Shown: positions 1 to 5,305 of the stretch, one piece after another
Layout of the letters: each line of letters begins with the position of its first letter
How positions within the stretch are numbered: the stretch's first letter is position 1
NCBI GenBank assembly: GCA_020059465.1
Contig: JAGVBZ010000042.1
Span: forward strand, 1-64,000
Length of the DNA stretch: 64,000 bases
Origin: Brevinematales bacterium
GTDB lineage: Bacteria; Spirochaetota; Brevinematia; Brevinematales; GWF1-51-8
Direction: 5' to 3'
Notes under the pieces: generated by a model
What the model was told of the DNA's origin: nothing
Seen by the model: the letters and a program-made list of their open reading frames with translations, nothing else
Database searches by the model: none
Program-made: the position numbers and the translations under genes

Positions 1-880
1 CGGATATCCCGATGTATGTTATGCTGCGGGATCGGCTTATAACGATATGAAGACTTGGATGAACTGGCTCAAGGTTGCGGCAAACGCAGGTTTCGACAGC
101 TGGAGATTCGACTATGTTAAGGGTGTTCCCACATGGGCGGTAAAAGATATGCGCGCGGCGACCGGGAACCCGTTCTCTGTCGGCGAATATTGGGATGCGA
201 ACACCTCCACATTGGATTGGTGGGCAGGCGCTTCCACAGCTCAGGTATTCGACTTCGCTCTCTATTATACGATGAAAGACATTTGCAATAATACCGGCGG
301 CGGCGGCTATCTTCCTAACGTATTCGATTACAGCAAATCCTATGCTGCGAAGAATTACGGTAAAGCGGTTACCTTCGTAGGCAACCATGACACCGATGAG
401 ATCTACAGCGACAAAATGATGGCTTATGCGTTCATCCTGACCTACAAGGGATATCCTTGTATCTTCTGGAAAGATTATTATAACTACGGCTTGGCGACCG
501 GCGGCGGATCGGGGACAGGCTGGGGTAACGGTATCAAGCAGTTGGTATGGTGCCGTGAGAAACTCGCCTCGGGCGGGCCGAACATTTCGGTTCTGAAGAG
601 CAACGACGGCGACTGGATTGCTTATCAGAGCGGCGGCTATTCAACATCTGCTCCCGGTTACATCGTAATCATCAACGACAACTCTTCCGCGTGGAAGGGC
701 GGATCGGTGGTAACCAGCAATAGCTATCTCAAGAACAAGACCCTGAAGGCGTACGCATGGTCGTCCTCGAAGACCGGACAGAACTATGCTCCCGCCAATC
801 AGTATTGCGATGCGAGCGGAAATGTTCAGGTTTGGGCAGCTCCCCGCGGTTATGCTGTTTACTCTGTAAACGGATTATAA
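1..880 (+). CDS. GH13 alpha-amylase, C-terminal part (5' end outside window)
   Basis: The reading frame is open from base 2 to the TAA at 878-880, so only the C-terminal part is present. It shows the GH13 catalytic signatures in order: GFDSWRFDYVKG with the nucleophile Asp (codon at 110-112), FSVGEYW with the acid/base Glu, and FVGNHDTDE with the third carboxylate. A beta-sandwich C-terminal domain follows and ends in APRGYAVYSVNGL, typical of extracellular alpha-amylases that cleave internal alpha-1,4 glucan bonds. The start and any signal peptide lie upstream of the window. A strong intrinsic terminator follows directly, so this gene ends its own transcription unit. The family is certain from the motifs; the exact GH13 subfamily is not resolved here. 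Confidence 0.93.
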   Translation, partial: GYPDVCYAAGSAYNDMKTWMNWLKVAANAGFDSWRFDYVKGVPTWAVKDMRAATGNPFSVGEYWDANTSTLDWWAGASTAQVFDFALYYTMKDICNNTGGGGYLPNVFDYSKSYAAKNYGKAVTFVGNHDTDEIYSDKMMAYAFILTYKGYPCIFWKDYYNYGLATGGGSGTGWGNGIKQLVWCREKLASGGPNISVLKSNDGDWIAYQSGGYSTSAPGYIVIINDNSSAWKGGSVVTSNSYLKNKTLKAYAWSSSKTGQNYAPANQYCDASGNVQVWAAPRGYAVYSVNGL

Positions 881-935: not shown

Positions 936-950
936 ATGTGGCGGTTTTTT
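917..950 (+). terminator. Intrinsic terminator of the amylase gene
   Basis: A perfect 11-bp stem (917-927 with 934-944) closes a 6-base loop and is followed directly by six T residues (945-950). It stands 36 bases after the amylase stop codon. Confidence 0.93.
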
Positions 951-971
951 ATTTTCAAATTGGAGGATTTT

Positions 972-2057
972 ATGAAATATAATTTTTTGATCTTAGGTTT
1001 GGTGATGATGATGGCGGCTTGCGGAAATTCGGGGACTGGTATGAAAAATAACGATCAACAGATTGCGGCATATATAACATTGCCGGGGGTACTCAGTACA
1101 AACGGAATAGAAGTGACAGCAAAACTGACTGCTATCGGTTCGGATGGGAGATTGAAGCTTGAGGTAAAGATAAAAAATAATACGCAGAAAAAACTTTCGA
1201 TTAATCCCGCTGTAGCCACAATTCAGGGGGATACGGTGAATAACACGCCGTACTCGTTCGAAGGCGGAGAAACAGGACTTGTCCCGGGCGGGGAATCTTC
1301 TTTCATCAGTATTTATAAACCGATCAATAATCCATTCCTGATGCAGAAGTATAATATCAGGGGCGATTTGAAAAAAGCTTATTCGATGGATTTATCGTTT
1401 ATCGGGGACGTAAGCGGGCAGCCTCTTGTCAGCTCGAAAGTTGATTTCGAGATCGCCGATCAGGAATATGCCGATTATTTATCGAAGTTCGGGATTGAAA
1501 AAGATTTTCAGGGATATAATCTTGCTCTCAATCGGGAAATATTCACGTCCATGCAGAAAAAGTACATGCTTGAAAACAAAATATATGTAGTAAACGACCA
1601 CGATGCCCATGAAGGTCACGACGGGCATGAAGAACATTCTGATGAAAAGCCGGATTCTATGAATGAGATCAGTCTTGTTGTCTCCGGAAACGAGGTGATG
1701 ATTGACAATATTATGATGAAAGCAGTAGGTTATAAAATAAAGGATACCTTTACGGTTTTCTTCCGTATTATTAATAGGAAACCCGAGGTGTTAACTATCG
1801 ATGTGAAGAAGTTTATTCTGAAAACGGAAGGGAAGGAGTACAACCCGGCAAACGATTTTCTTAAGGATAATCCCGGTATCCCGAACACGAACGGGGTAAT
1901 TCGTTTGGACCTGAATGAAAGGATTGAGTTTATTTTTGAATACAAATTTGGCCCCTCCCCGAAACTGCTCGAATGGTATCTTGCCGGATTTATGAATAGT
2001 AAAGGCATCAAGATGATCTATACCAATTTTGTATTCAGCAATGTAGGAAAGATGTAG
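972..2057 (+). CDS. Predicted lipoprotein with His/Asp-rich linker, function unknown
   Basis: A 361-residue protein that I do not recognise. ATG 972 is chosen because GGAGG lies just upstream and translation then opens with a lipoprotein signal (MKYNFLILGLVMMMAACG, lipid Cys in MAAC). The mature part looks like two similar beta-rich halves. One (about 45-190) holds LKLEVKIKNNT and GLVPGGESSF; the other (about 240-355) holds FTVFFRIINRK and RIEFIFEYKFG. They recall DUF4352-type extracellular domains. Between them, residues 209-222 are a His/Asp/Glu cluster (HDAHEGHDGHEEH), a plausible divalent-metal binding stretch. The gene is followed after 59 bases by the caspase-like gene on the same strand, so co-transcription is possible. 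The periplasmic or outer-membrane location is inferred from the signal only. Confidence 0.8.
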   Translation: MKYNFLILGLVMMMAACGNSGTGMKNNDQQIAAYITLPGVLSTNGIEVTAKLTAIGSDGRLKLEVKIKNNTQKKLSINPAVATIQGDTVNNTPYSFEGGETGLVPGGESSFISIYKPINNPFLMQKYNIRGDLKKAYSMDLSFIGDVSGQPLVSSKVDFEIADQEYADYLSKFGIEKDFQGYNLALNREIFTSMQKKYMLENKIYVVNDHDAHEGHDGHEEHSDEKPDSMNEISLVVSGNEVMIDNIMMKAVGYKIKDTFTVFFRIINRKPEVLTIDVKKFILKTEGKEYNPANDFLKDNPGIPNTNGVIRLDLNERIEFIFEYKFGPSPKLLEWYLAGFMNSKGIKMIYTNFVFSNVGKM

Positions 2058-2116
2058 CAGCTTGAAAAGGACGGTTATTTGATGGTAAACTGTTTCTATA
2101 CGACAGGAGAACCTGA

Positions 2117-3244
2117 ATGAAACGTGCGGGTTTGTTTTTTCTACTTTTACTGCTCATTGTACCGTCCTTTTCCCAGCTTTTTGCCGTGACCCTGAAAACC
2201 TTGATTATTATTCAAGACAAGTATAATTACAAGAAACTAAACGATATCGCCCAGGGTGTACGGGTTAACTACAAACACCTGAAAAAGCTGCTGCGAGTAC
2301 TTGAGGATAACGATATTCTTGATGTCGATGAAACCGTGATCAGCGGAAAGGATGCGACAAAGAAAAATATCCTGAAGGCAATCGCGGATATTAAAGTGGA
2401 CAGAGACGAGTTATTGTTGGTTTATTTTGCCGGGCATGGCGGCATGAAGAAAGGCAAAACCTTTTTCTCCACATCCGAAGGGGGAATTATTTACCGAAAG
2501 GATTTCGAGAAAGTGGTCGAAGAGAAGCCCGCAAAACTGAAAATTCTGATTACAGACGCCTGCAGCGCGTCTATTGAGGAATTGGCGCATAAAGGCTTGC
2601 TGGATAGCGTCGCGCCAAAAGAAGCTGATGTAAATCCCGAAGTATACAGGAATCTCTTCCTCAATTATAAGGGATTCCTTCATATTTCCGCCGCCACCGA
2701 GGGCGAATTTGCATGGGTATCCCCCGCAAAGGGCGGATTTTTTTCTTATGCGTTATTCTATATGACACTCTACCGGAATCCAGCCGATACATGGGAAGAA
2801 GTGGTCGCCAAGGCGAAAAGTTTCACCCTGAAAAGCTATAAAAAAATGTACAATTCCGGTAAAATTCCTAAAAAAATTCTCAAAGAGATTAAAAAGCTGG
2901 GGATCAAGGGGCAGACGCCGAAGGTCTACTCGATGCCGGTAATGGTGAAGCCGGTTAATGACAAGAGTTTGCCGAAAAACAGCGATACGGTTGTAGAATT
3001 AAAAAACCTGACCGACCGGCAGGTGGTTTACTATGTAGTCTCGGGATACGGAAAACCGGAAAAGAATATTATTAAGCCCGGAGAGATTCAGACGATCGAA
3101 CAACCGGGTACGATAAAAATATCTCTGCTGGACCCGGAGGTAAAGAAATCGCTGATAGTTCTGGACAACGGCAAGTATAATTTTTATACCGGCCGGAACG
3201 GCGATTTGGAACTGCAATCCGCCGGCGAACCGGCTATTCGTTGA
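2117..3244 (+). CDS. Secreted caspase-like (peptidase C14 family) protein
   Basis: A 375-residue protein with an N-terminal signal peptide (hydrophobic residues 5-22). The caspase-fold hallmarks are visible: VYFAGHGG with His107 and LITDACSAS with Cys149, each after a hydrophobic beta strand, and a later strand in HISAATEGEFAWVS. Such clan CD proteins cleave after acidic or basic residues; the specificity cannot be read here. Residues about 255-375 form a separate C-terminal part, possibly a beta domain (RQVVYYVVSGYG). The start has a GGAGA ribosome site. The gene lies 24 bases upstream of the deaminase gene, implying one transcript. Export makes a direct cytosolic suicide role unlikely unless the signal is not cleaved or used. 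Family assignment is firm; protease activity and partner are unknown. Confidence 0.82.
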   Translation: MKRAGLFFLLLLLIVPSFSQLFAVTLKTLIIIQDKYNYKKLNDIAQGVRVNYKHLKKLLRVLEDNDILDVDETVISGKDATKKNILKAIADIKVDRDELLLVYFAGHGGMKKGKTFFSTSEGGIIYRKDFEKVVEEKPAKLKILITDACSASIEELAHKGLLDSVAPKEADVNPEVYRNLFLNYKGFLHISAATEGEFAWVSPAKGGFFSYALFYMTLYRNPADTWEEVVAKAKSFTLKSYKKMYNSGKIPKKILKEIKKLGIKGQTPKVYSMPVMVKPVNDKSLPKNSDTVVELKNLTDRQVVYYVVSGYGKPEKNIIKPGEIQTIEQPGTIKISLLDPEVKKSLIVLDNGKYNFYTGRNGDLELQSAGEPAIR

Positions 3245-3268
3245 ATTTCCCGACTTCGAGGGGGATAG

Positions 3269-5119
3269 ATGCGCGATTTACCATTGTTGATATTAGGTTT
3301 GACCGGGCCGATGGGCGCCGGCTGTACTCGTCTGGCGCGTGATATCAGTAAAATGGAGCCCGGCAAGGTAATAAAAAAACGCGGGCTTCTCGATGTTGTT
3401 TCACGGGATATCGCTGAACTCAGCCGCCGGATGCGGGAACTGCAGCCTTCAGTACAGTCGAGCGGCGTACAAAAACAATCCGATTACATGGGGTTGAAGC
3501 GGTTAAACCGCAGTCTGGCAGAAAAACTTGCCGAACGCGCCTGCTTGAATGTTATCGCGAAATCCGCGCTGCCGGAGCCGGTCTATATCTCGATCACTAC
3601 CATCATTCTAAAACTTGCCGCTGAAAGTATTACTACCCCGGAATTCCAGGAATGGGCGAAGGACCATGCCAAGGCCGCGGATTTGCTTAAATGGCTGCGC
3701 GGAAAATGGGAAAGCGAGCTAACCCTGTACGATTCGTGGGAACATGACGCGAGCCGATTCTCTCACGAGGAACTTTCCCGGATGGACGGGATGTTTGCGG
3801 ATTTCGAGAACACGGGCGACAGTATGACGCTCGAACAGCTTGAATCCTTCTTCGGAAAACGGAAAAACGAGTTCTATCTCCGCGACTTCGGGGAAAATAT
3901 CCGCCTGACCGGCAATCCGTTCAACTCTAGGAATGGGCATGACCCTGTCGCTTACGCCAGCGAATCGCTGGTAAGAATTGCCTACGAATCCGACCGTTTT
4001 ATCCGGTATTACCGCACACGTTCCGATGAAAAGAAATCGCAATTCTTTATCATAGATGAGATTAAGAATCCCGGCGAAGCGGAATTTTTCCGGGCGCGTC
4101 ACCAGCATTTTTACCTGATATCCATTTATTCCAATTCCGAACTGAGGGCCGCCCGCCTTCGGAAGACCTTATCGGATAAGGTTACATTCAGCGATTCGGA
4201 ATTCTCCCATCTCTTCAGGGAACTCGATTCGCGGGACTGGGGTTTCGAGGATTTCGACGCGCAAGGATTGCACCGGCAGAATATTTATCGCTGCTTCAAT
4301 CTCGCGGATATCGCGATCAATAACGATATAGAGGACGAGCGTTTCTCGGAGATGCTGTTCGATAAATTCATCCGTTATTATGCCCTGATGCTGTCGCCCG
4401 GATGTGTACAGCCGACCGTGCAGGAGACATATATGAATACGGCGTATTCGCTCTCCCTCCGTTCGACATGCATTTCCCGTCAGGTCGGGGCGGTGATTAC
4501 CGACAACGAGAACCGCATCTTGAGCCTCGGATGGAACGAGGTGCCGGAGGGGCAGATCGGGTGCGGATTGAAGATAAAAAGCGACTATACGGCCAAGGAG
4601 AACAGGTTATTCGAGATGGAAATCTGGGAGCATGTAATCAGCGGGGACGACCTCGCGGTGTGGGCGGACAACGATTCGGTATGCGTCAAGGATATTCTCT
4701 CGCGTATCGAGATCAAGTCCAAACTGAAAAGCACGGACCTTACCCCCGAACAGAGGAACGAAGTGGCGCGCGGCCTTCGCATCAAACGGCTGGAGTACTC
4801 GCGTTCCCTGCACGCCGAGGAAAACGCTATCCTGCAGGTGGCCTCGCGCGGCGGGGTCGGTCTGAAGGACGGCGTGATCTATGTGACAACGTTCCCGTGC
4901 GAACTCTGCTCGAAAAAAATCTATCAGGTCGGGATATCGAAAATCTACTACACCGAGCCGTACCCGAACAGTATATCGGAAAAGGTGATCCTGAAGGACG
5001 GGATAAGAAGCATCAAAATACTTCAATTCGAGGGCGTGAAAAGCTACAGCTATTTCAAACTCTTTAAGCCCGAATTTGACAAAAAGGACGCCCAGATGCT
5101 TGAAGGGCGGGGAATGTAG
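3269..5119 (+). CDS. P-loop NTPase/deoxycytidylate deaminase fusion (AvcD / anti-phage dCTP deaminase type)
   Basis: A 616-residue two-domain protein. The N-terminus has a nucleotide-kinase-like P-loop, GLTGPMGAGCT, with Cys where Walker A normally has Lys. The middle (about 60-380) is helical and charged. The C-terminal part (about 385-600) is a zinc-dependent cytidine/deoxycytidylate deaminase domain: RSTCISRQVGAV, then HAEENA with zinc ligand His515 and catalytic Glu517, and FPCELC with zinc ligands Cys544 and Cys547. A charged insertion of about 70 residues separates the first strand from HAE. This arrangement matches AvcD and related defence deaminases, which deplete dCTP/dCMP during phage infection and are held inactive by an upstream RNA (AvcI) in Vibrio. 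Only 24 bases separate it from the caspase-like gene, so any AvcI-like RNA would have to overlap that gene. A housekeeping dCMP deaminase is about 150-180 residues, so this is not the ordinary enzyme. Confidence 0.8.
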   Translation: MRDLPLLILGLTGPMGAGCTRLARDISKMEPGKVIKKRGLLDVVSRDIAELSRRMRELQPSVQSSGVQKQSDYMGLKRLNRSLAEKLAERACLNVIAKSALPEPVYISITTIILKLAAESITTPEFQEWAKDHAKAADLLKWLRGKWESELTLYDSWEHDASRFSHEELSRMDGMFADFENTGDSMTLEQLESFFGKRKNEFYLRDFGENIRLTGNPFNSRNGHDPVAYASESLVRIAYESDRFIRYYRTRSDEKKSQFFIIDEIKNPGEAEFFRARHQHFYLISIYSNSELRAARLRKTLSDKVTFSDSEFSHLFRELDSRDWGFEDFDAQGLHRQNIYRCFNLADIAINNDIEDERFSEMLFDKFIRYYALMLSPGCVQPTVQETYMNTAYSLSLRSTCISRQVGAVITDNENRILSLGWNEVPEGQIGCGLKIKSDYTAKENRLFEMEIWEHVISGDDLAVWADNDSVCVKDILSRIEIKSKLKSTDLTPEQRNEVARGLRIKRLEYSRSLHAEENAILQVASRGGVGLKDGVIYVTTFPCELCSKKIYQVGISKIYYTEPYPNSISEKVILKDGIRSIKILQFEGVKSYSYFKLFKPEFDKKDAQMLEGRGM

Positions 5120-5141
5120 CGATATCTTTCCCATACATAAT

Positions 5142-5170
5142 TTGTTGAAACTTTTATCAAGTGGTATAAT
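5142..5170 (+). promoter_or_regulatory. Candidate promoter upstream of the structured leader
   Basis: A perfect TATAAT (5165-5170) has TTGTTG 17 bases upstream (5142-5147). The -35 match is poor, but this is the first promoter-like element after the deaminase gene. It would give a leader of about 130 bases before the gene at 5306. Confidence 0.45.
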
Positions 5171-5305
5171 ATTGAAATGAAAGGAAAATGCGGTAAAATT
5201 TATTTTTCCGCATTGTATTGAGGGTCCGCCCGAGGGAAACTCTCAAAGGATGAGAGAATGTATTTTGGAATAACGACATAAAAACGAAATAGAGCGGGAA
5301 AAATT
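5171..5305 (+). promoter_or_regulatory. Structured 5' leader of unknown type
   Basis: This 135-base leader contains two hairpins. The first is 5187-5214: a 7-bp stem AATGCGG/CCGCATT, a T-T mismatch, then an A4/T4 stem closed by TTTA. The second, at about 5240-5256, is CTCTC-AAAGGAT-GAGAG. Between them is a GC-rich segment, GGGTCCGCCCGAGGGAAAC. No U-run follows either stem, so they are not plain terminators. I could not match the segment to a known riboswitch class: the glycine aptamer shares only a superficial ACTCTC motif. Confidence 0.4.

Follow-up and report, generated by a model that had tools for sequence, protein, structure and literature searches.

Anti-phage dCTP deaminases are usually regarded as mobile defence genes. 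In a fusion of the AvcD type, the N-terminal domain binds the nucleotide, and dCTP or dCMP is converted to dUTP or dUMP at the zinc site, lowering the deoxycytidine pool. The AvcD of the Vibrio cholerae type is restrained by an RNA, AvcI, which has a minimum of about 171 nt and a transcript of just under 300 nt (PMC10511110). Bacterial C14 caspases (orthocaspases, and the EACC1-associated caspase of NF047832) possess a p20-like domain with the GHGG and D-A-C motifs, and metacaspases likewise have an Asp two residues before the Cys.

Relatives of both families are neighbours in the DNA analysed here. The window, a stretch of 64,000 nucleotides, lies on contig C45 of genome G000, a spirochaete assembly of 3.19 Mb that is 97% complete. 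On its plus strand, gene 2117..3244 encodes a caspase-like protein of 375 residues and gene 3269..5119 a P-loop plus deaminase fusion of 616 residues. The first-pass annotation suggested that the two genes, possibly together with an upstream lipoprotein gene, could be an undescribed composite system. We favour, with moderate confidence, a different explanation, namely a vertically fixed AvcD-type deaminase that is co-transcribed with an exported orthocaspase-like protein acting elsewhere.

By its sequence, the fusion is a member of the AvcD/dCTPase superfamily, in the long "GSGC" branch. Its N-terminal domain is P-loop kinase-like, with a Walker A at 3305-3328 (GPMGAGCT, residues 13-20) that has no Lys. 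The C-terminal dCMP/dCTP deaminase domain carries HAE at 4811-4819 (residues 515-517) and PCELC at residues 543-547, with C544 at 4898-4900 and C547 at 4907-4909. The PADLOC dCTPase model matches residues 5-607 with 363.8 bits (E 5.5e-109), and PF00383 of Pfam matches with 77.6 bits. H515, E517, C544, and C547 vary little or not at all in alignments of 13 fusions (that of the window and 12 others) and of 18 (that of the window and 17 from one relative and viral contigs), and the same holds for the zinc/substrate residues S399, S403-A408, and N423. Reading frame, profiles, and alignments all agree with the original description, which gave 616 residues for the fusion and found HAE and PCxxC intact. 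The predicted structure (pLDDT 73.9) contains both domains, and its C-terminal domain matches by fold the solved dCMP deaminases 2hvw and 1vq2 and the bifunctional dCMP/dCTP deaminase 7fh4.

AvcD (PADLOC dCTPase PDLC02373; NF041025) and the window fusion have in common the P-loop and deaminase domains, HAE, PCxxC, and a Walker A without the canonical Lys. Unlike AvcD, the window fusion has a long N-terminal insert and the GSGC loop; it is chromosomal, syntenic, and vertically inherited, with neither an avcI-sized gap nor defence genes beside it. The AvcD designation stands at the level of the superfamily, given the PADLOC match, but the score on NF041025, "anti-phage dCTP deaminase", is 296.7 bits against a cut-off of 400. 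Other long-branch fusions score 254-433 bits on this model, several of them likewise below 400, a sign that this threshold is biased towards the short branch.

A tree of 29 fusions displays two well-supported branches. The short one comprises E. coli, Klebsiella, and Vibrio plasmids; the long one, with a GSGC[ST] P-loop, comprises Pantoea, cyanobacterial, and Lachnospira plasmids and two other spirochaetes. The genus of the window is placed in the long branch with 100/100 support as a separate lineage on a long stem, its fusion being about 28-34% identical to the rest. The same loop, G-x-x-G-[SA]-G-C-[ST], and a similar length are found in Pantoea agglomerans WP_129063485.1, Geminocystis WP_066349598.1, Picosynechococcus, E. 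eligens, and the genomes G152 and G055. Loss of the Walker A Lys was considered as a sign of decay and rejected, since the Lys is absent throughout the long branch. In a PADLOC model search of 393 genomes of the phylum, long fusions outside the genus occur only in G152 and G055, and the other families of the order have no full-length fusion. In contrast to the window, several long-branch fusions adjoin integrases, methylases, CD-NTase/SLATT-like or dGTPase genes; none of them adjoins a caspase.

Judged by eye, the G152 fusion (L046; G152:C15) lies amid genes for an OLD-type ATPase with TOPRIM, DUF262, CD-NTase, and SLATT-like proteins and has the look of a defence island, and the G055 fusion lies amid patatin, DNA methylase, and LexA genes. 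On the Geminocystis plasmid pGM01 (L052:2918-6440), an annotated dGTP triphosphohydrolase gene stands divergently beside that of an anti-phage dCTP deaminase, both being nucleotide-depletion families; in this deaminase, Trp stands where the zinc site would have its first Cys (SPWELC). Another family of the order has a 350-residue fusion (L048:5651-6703; G008:C74), shorter than AvcD, of a kinase-like domain with the canonical P-loop GPNAAGKGE and a dCMP deaminase.

The caspase gene product matches PF00656 of Pfam with 47.5 bits (cut-off 21.4; E 2.3e-12). It comprises a signal sequence (about residues 1-23), a p20-like domain (about 29-232), and a C-terminal beta domain (about 290-368). His107 (2435-2437) stands in a GHGG context and Cys149 (2561-2563) in a DAC (D-x-C) context, and both are kept in 4/4 orthologues and 9/9 paralogue sequences, which bears out the earlier identification of a C14-like protein with this dyad. 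The Asp two residues before the Cys, as in metacaspases, suggests Arg/Lys specificity. The predicted model is poor (pLDDT 48), the beta domain being its sole fairly confident part, and a sequence search of the PDB with the protein gave no match.

The window family differs from orthocaspases and from NF047832 by having a signal sequence or lipobox and a C-terminal beta domain of its own. Its score on NF047832 (NCBIfam) is 43.3 bits against a cut-off of 140, indicating that it is not the effector-associated (EACC1) type used in conflict systems. Every orthologue has a signal-like hydrophobic N-terminus, judged by eye (window: MKRAGLFFLLLLLIVPSFSQLFA). The caution first attached to the signal peptide was thus well placed, and the caspase looks exported. 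We infer that it has an extracytoplasmic target of its own, either periplasmic or outside the cell. It belongs to a set of four paralogue groups, all apparently exported, and would not be expected to encounter the deaminase in the cytosol.

The two genes are probably a single transcription unit. A putative sigma-70 promoter precedes the caspase gene at 2062..2091 on the plus strand (TTGAAA-N18-TAAACT, TG before the -10, 9/12 match), and a promoter-like sequence occupies the same position, after the lipoprotein stop codon and before the caspase gene begins, in 4/4 species of the genus; the G006 copy reads TTGACA-N17-TAGATT. The gap between the caspase and deaminase genes (3245..3268, plus strand) contains the ribosome-binding-like GAGGGGG at 3258-3264. 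It measures 24 nt, as first reported, here and in two other species, and 27 nt in the fourth. A putative promoter of the next transcription unit follows the deaminase gene at 5145..5172 on the same strand (TTGAAA-N16-TAATAT), and a similar promoter-like sequence is present at this place in 4/4 species. Only 186 nt separate the deaminase gene from a GH43-like gene in the window. In three relatives, a DUF6263 lipoprotein gene lies 3′ of the deaminase gene (L003:5874-6818, L004:7190-8131); it is absent at window 5120-5305.

The upstream lipoprotein gene, with its His-rich patch, extends over 936..2057 of the plus strand, with a likely start at 972 and the lipobox MMAAC. It has a promoter-like site of its own at 908-935 (11/12 match) and a strong terminator-like hairpin with a T tail before it at 916-945; with 37% identity to G006, it also evolves faster than either of the other two genes. 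Because of its own site and the conserved promoter before the caspase gene, we rejected it as a third operon member. The proposal of one operon is hence probably right for the caspase and deaminase genes, whereas the lipoprotein gene probably stands outside.

The narrow gap also bears on control of the deaminase. Its superfamily, together with the restraint of V. cholerae-type AvcD by AvcI RNA (PMC10511110), would fit a toxin-antitoxin-like system in which an RNA or a neighbouring protein restrains the enzyme. No avcI-sized RNA gene fits into 24 nt, however, and an Rfam scan of the window at the gathering threshold matched tRNAs only. An avcI-like RNA between the genes was rejected on both counts, and we consider a system of this kind very improbable here. 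With no room of avcI size 5′ of the deaminase gene, control must differ from that by an adjacent AvcI, and perhaps operates through the nucleotide-binding domain, although a restraining RNA encoded elsewhere is possible.

Four species represent the genus: G000 (window), G005, G006, and G007, with genomes that are incomplete (73-97%). The caspase and deaminase genes are adjacent and in the same order in 4/4 of them, inside a block that is syntenic in all four from the amylase to the GH43-like genes and beyond. The neighbours in the window encode an amylase, GH43-like proteins, an alpha-L-fucosidase-like protein, GlmS, and GlyRS. The amylase gene, of which only the 3′ end is visible (window 1-880), is tandemly duplicated in G006 (L004:7-2901).

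Between the window and G007, the deaminase is 90.6% identical, GlmS 92.8%, and GlyRS 89.7%; the caspase is 76% identical, the lipoprotein 68%, and GH43a 70%. The corresponding dN values are 0.057 for the deaminase, 0.044 for GlmS, and 0.063 for GlyRS, and 0.136 for the caspase, 0.195 for the lipoprotein, and 0.209 for the GH43-like protein. With identity and dN close to those of GlmS and GlyRS, the deaminase behaves like a core gene.

A purely housekeeping enzyme, one that provides or controls the dUMP/dUTP used in thymidylate synthesis and plays no part in defence, would account for this core status and GlmS/GlyRS-like rate, as well as for the lack of defence neighbours, and the window's genome encodes ThyX and a dUTPase that could use dUTP/dUMP. 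A ComEB-like dCMP deaminase separate from the fusion is, however, encoded in G000, G006, and G007. With this enzyme, the dUTPase, and ThyX, the cell does not need the fusion to make dUMP; the fusion was accordingly rejected as the sole source of dUMP, and the metabolic reading is weakened. It also fits poorly with the absence of the fusion from other families of the order and with the defence-like or mobile settings of its relatives (G152, G055, plasmids, prophage contigs). We regard pure housekeeping as unlikely, if worth keeping in view. The fusion itself resembles ComEB (TIGR02571) in the fold of the catalytic domain and the zinc motifs, but differs by its P-loop domain and by a large insertion that splits the deaminase motif into two halves, and it scores 70.2 bits on TIGR02571 against a cut-off of 219. 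As the cell's own ComEB-like deaminase, dUTPase, and ThyX leave no evident housekeeping need, a defence role for the fusion is plausible.

On infection, the deaminase of a composite system would deplete deoxycytidine nucleotides in the cytosol, and the co-expressed envelope caspase would be a second, lethal or anti-release arm. The likely common promoter, the spacing of 24-27 nt kept in four species, the dyad intact in all caspase orthologues, and the anti-phage members of the deaminase superfamily agree with this proposal. Kept at near-saturated synonymous divergence, the spacing could reflect a functional tie.

Outside the genus, the gene order does not recur. A motif scan, which recovers all four known caspases, found a caspase motif near 0/37 fusion loci (8 plasmid, 26 viral-contig, and 3 other spirochaete loci); the viral-contig set includes near-duplicate sequences and some loci with truncated flanks, which brings the number of independent loci below 37. 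The one further motif match, in L078, was rejected as a caspase, because it has a different frame context and no GHG pattern. Measured against the refuting condition first named, namely that homologues of the fusion in relatives never adjoin the caspase gene, the outcome is mixed: the pair is constant inside the genus and absent from the loci outside it. A word search of the openly accessible literature found no dCTP deaminase described as paired with a caspase.

The locus does not resemble a defence island either. Comparison of ten nearby proteins with PADLOC gave no defence match, and with the same gene order in 4/4 genus members the setting is neither that of a defence island nor mobile. 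The window deaminase seems to have settled in its chromosome, whereas its family is mobile elsewhere. Its vertical inheritance and housekeeping-level constraint argue against the composite system, as does the predicted location of the two proteins in different compartments.

The caspase paralogues weigh further against it. The genus has four exported paralogue groups with a common C-terminal beta domain (G000:C45, G000:C36, G000:C3, and orthologues), which are confined to it among 198 genomes of the phylum at E 1e-20, save for two weak matches. Group ii adjoins hydrogenase and aminotransferase genes in three genomes, and group iii adjoins lpdA and thioredoxin genes in four. These groups keep their unrelated neighbours as faithfully as the window caspase keeps the deaminase, and synteny extends to the genes around the pair; that two genes stay side by side across this genus is therefore no evidence of a common function. 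The composite system builds on adjacency, and we consider it improbable. Still less probable is its form as a two-compartment abortive infection, in which deoxycytidine depletion would halt phage DNA synthesis while the exported caspase acted in the envelope, allowing neither replication nor phage release.

Another paralogue, a lipoprotein, is encoded directly 3′ of two tandem serpin genes in two relatives (L154:3042-6833, G006:C50; L155:2644-6743, G007:C18). The serpins match PF00079 with 217-311 bits. The window's own genome has a serpin pair without a caspase (L175:6821-9278; G000:C8). In 3/3 species the predicted P1 residue of one of the serpins is Arg (F-R|G), which fits the Arg/Lys specificity expected of a D-x-C caspase. 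A bacterial caspase-serpin pair, that is, a protease-inhibitor pair, is possible, and this arrangement is a better lead than the composite defence system.

The co-transcription of a fixed deaminase with a caspase acting elsewhere, which we favour, can be outlined as follows. One promoter (2062-2091) would drive expression of the exported orthocaspase-like protein and the cytosolic fusion. The caspase would act on its own target in the periplasm or outside the cell, and its link to the deaminase would be one of co-expression. The fusion would bind nucleotide at its N-terminal domain and convert dCTP/dCMP to dUTP/dUMP at the zinc site, drawing the deoxycytidine pool down. Vertically fixed and tightly constrained, it is most likely no mobile defence cassette but a permanent, cell-intrinsic brake on this pool, which may serve against phages, in nucleotide homeostasis, or in both.

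At this locus, a divergent deaminase has become a fixed gene of a genus, lies outside defence islands, and is under constraint similar to that of a tRNA synthetase, although the genome also encodes a normal dCMP deaminase. It may be a domesticated defence enzyme, which can be tested, and it would allow a study of how such an enzyme is controlled with no RNA antitoxin beside it. The family of exported caspases, with one group beside tandem serpins in two species, may in addition provide a protease-inhibitor pair worth testing.
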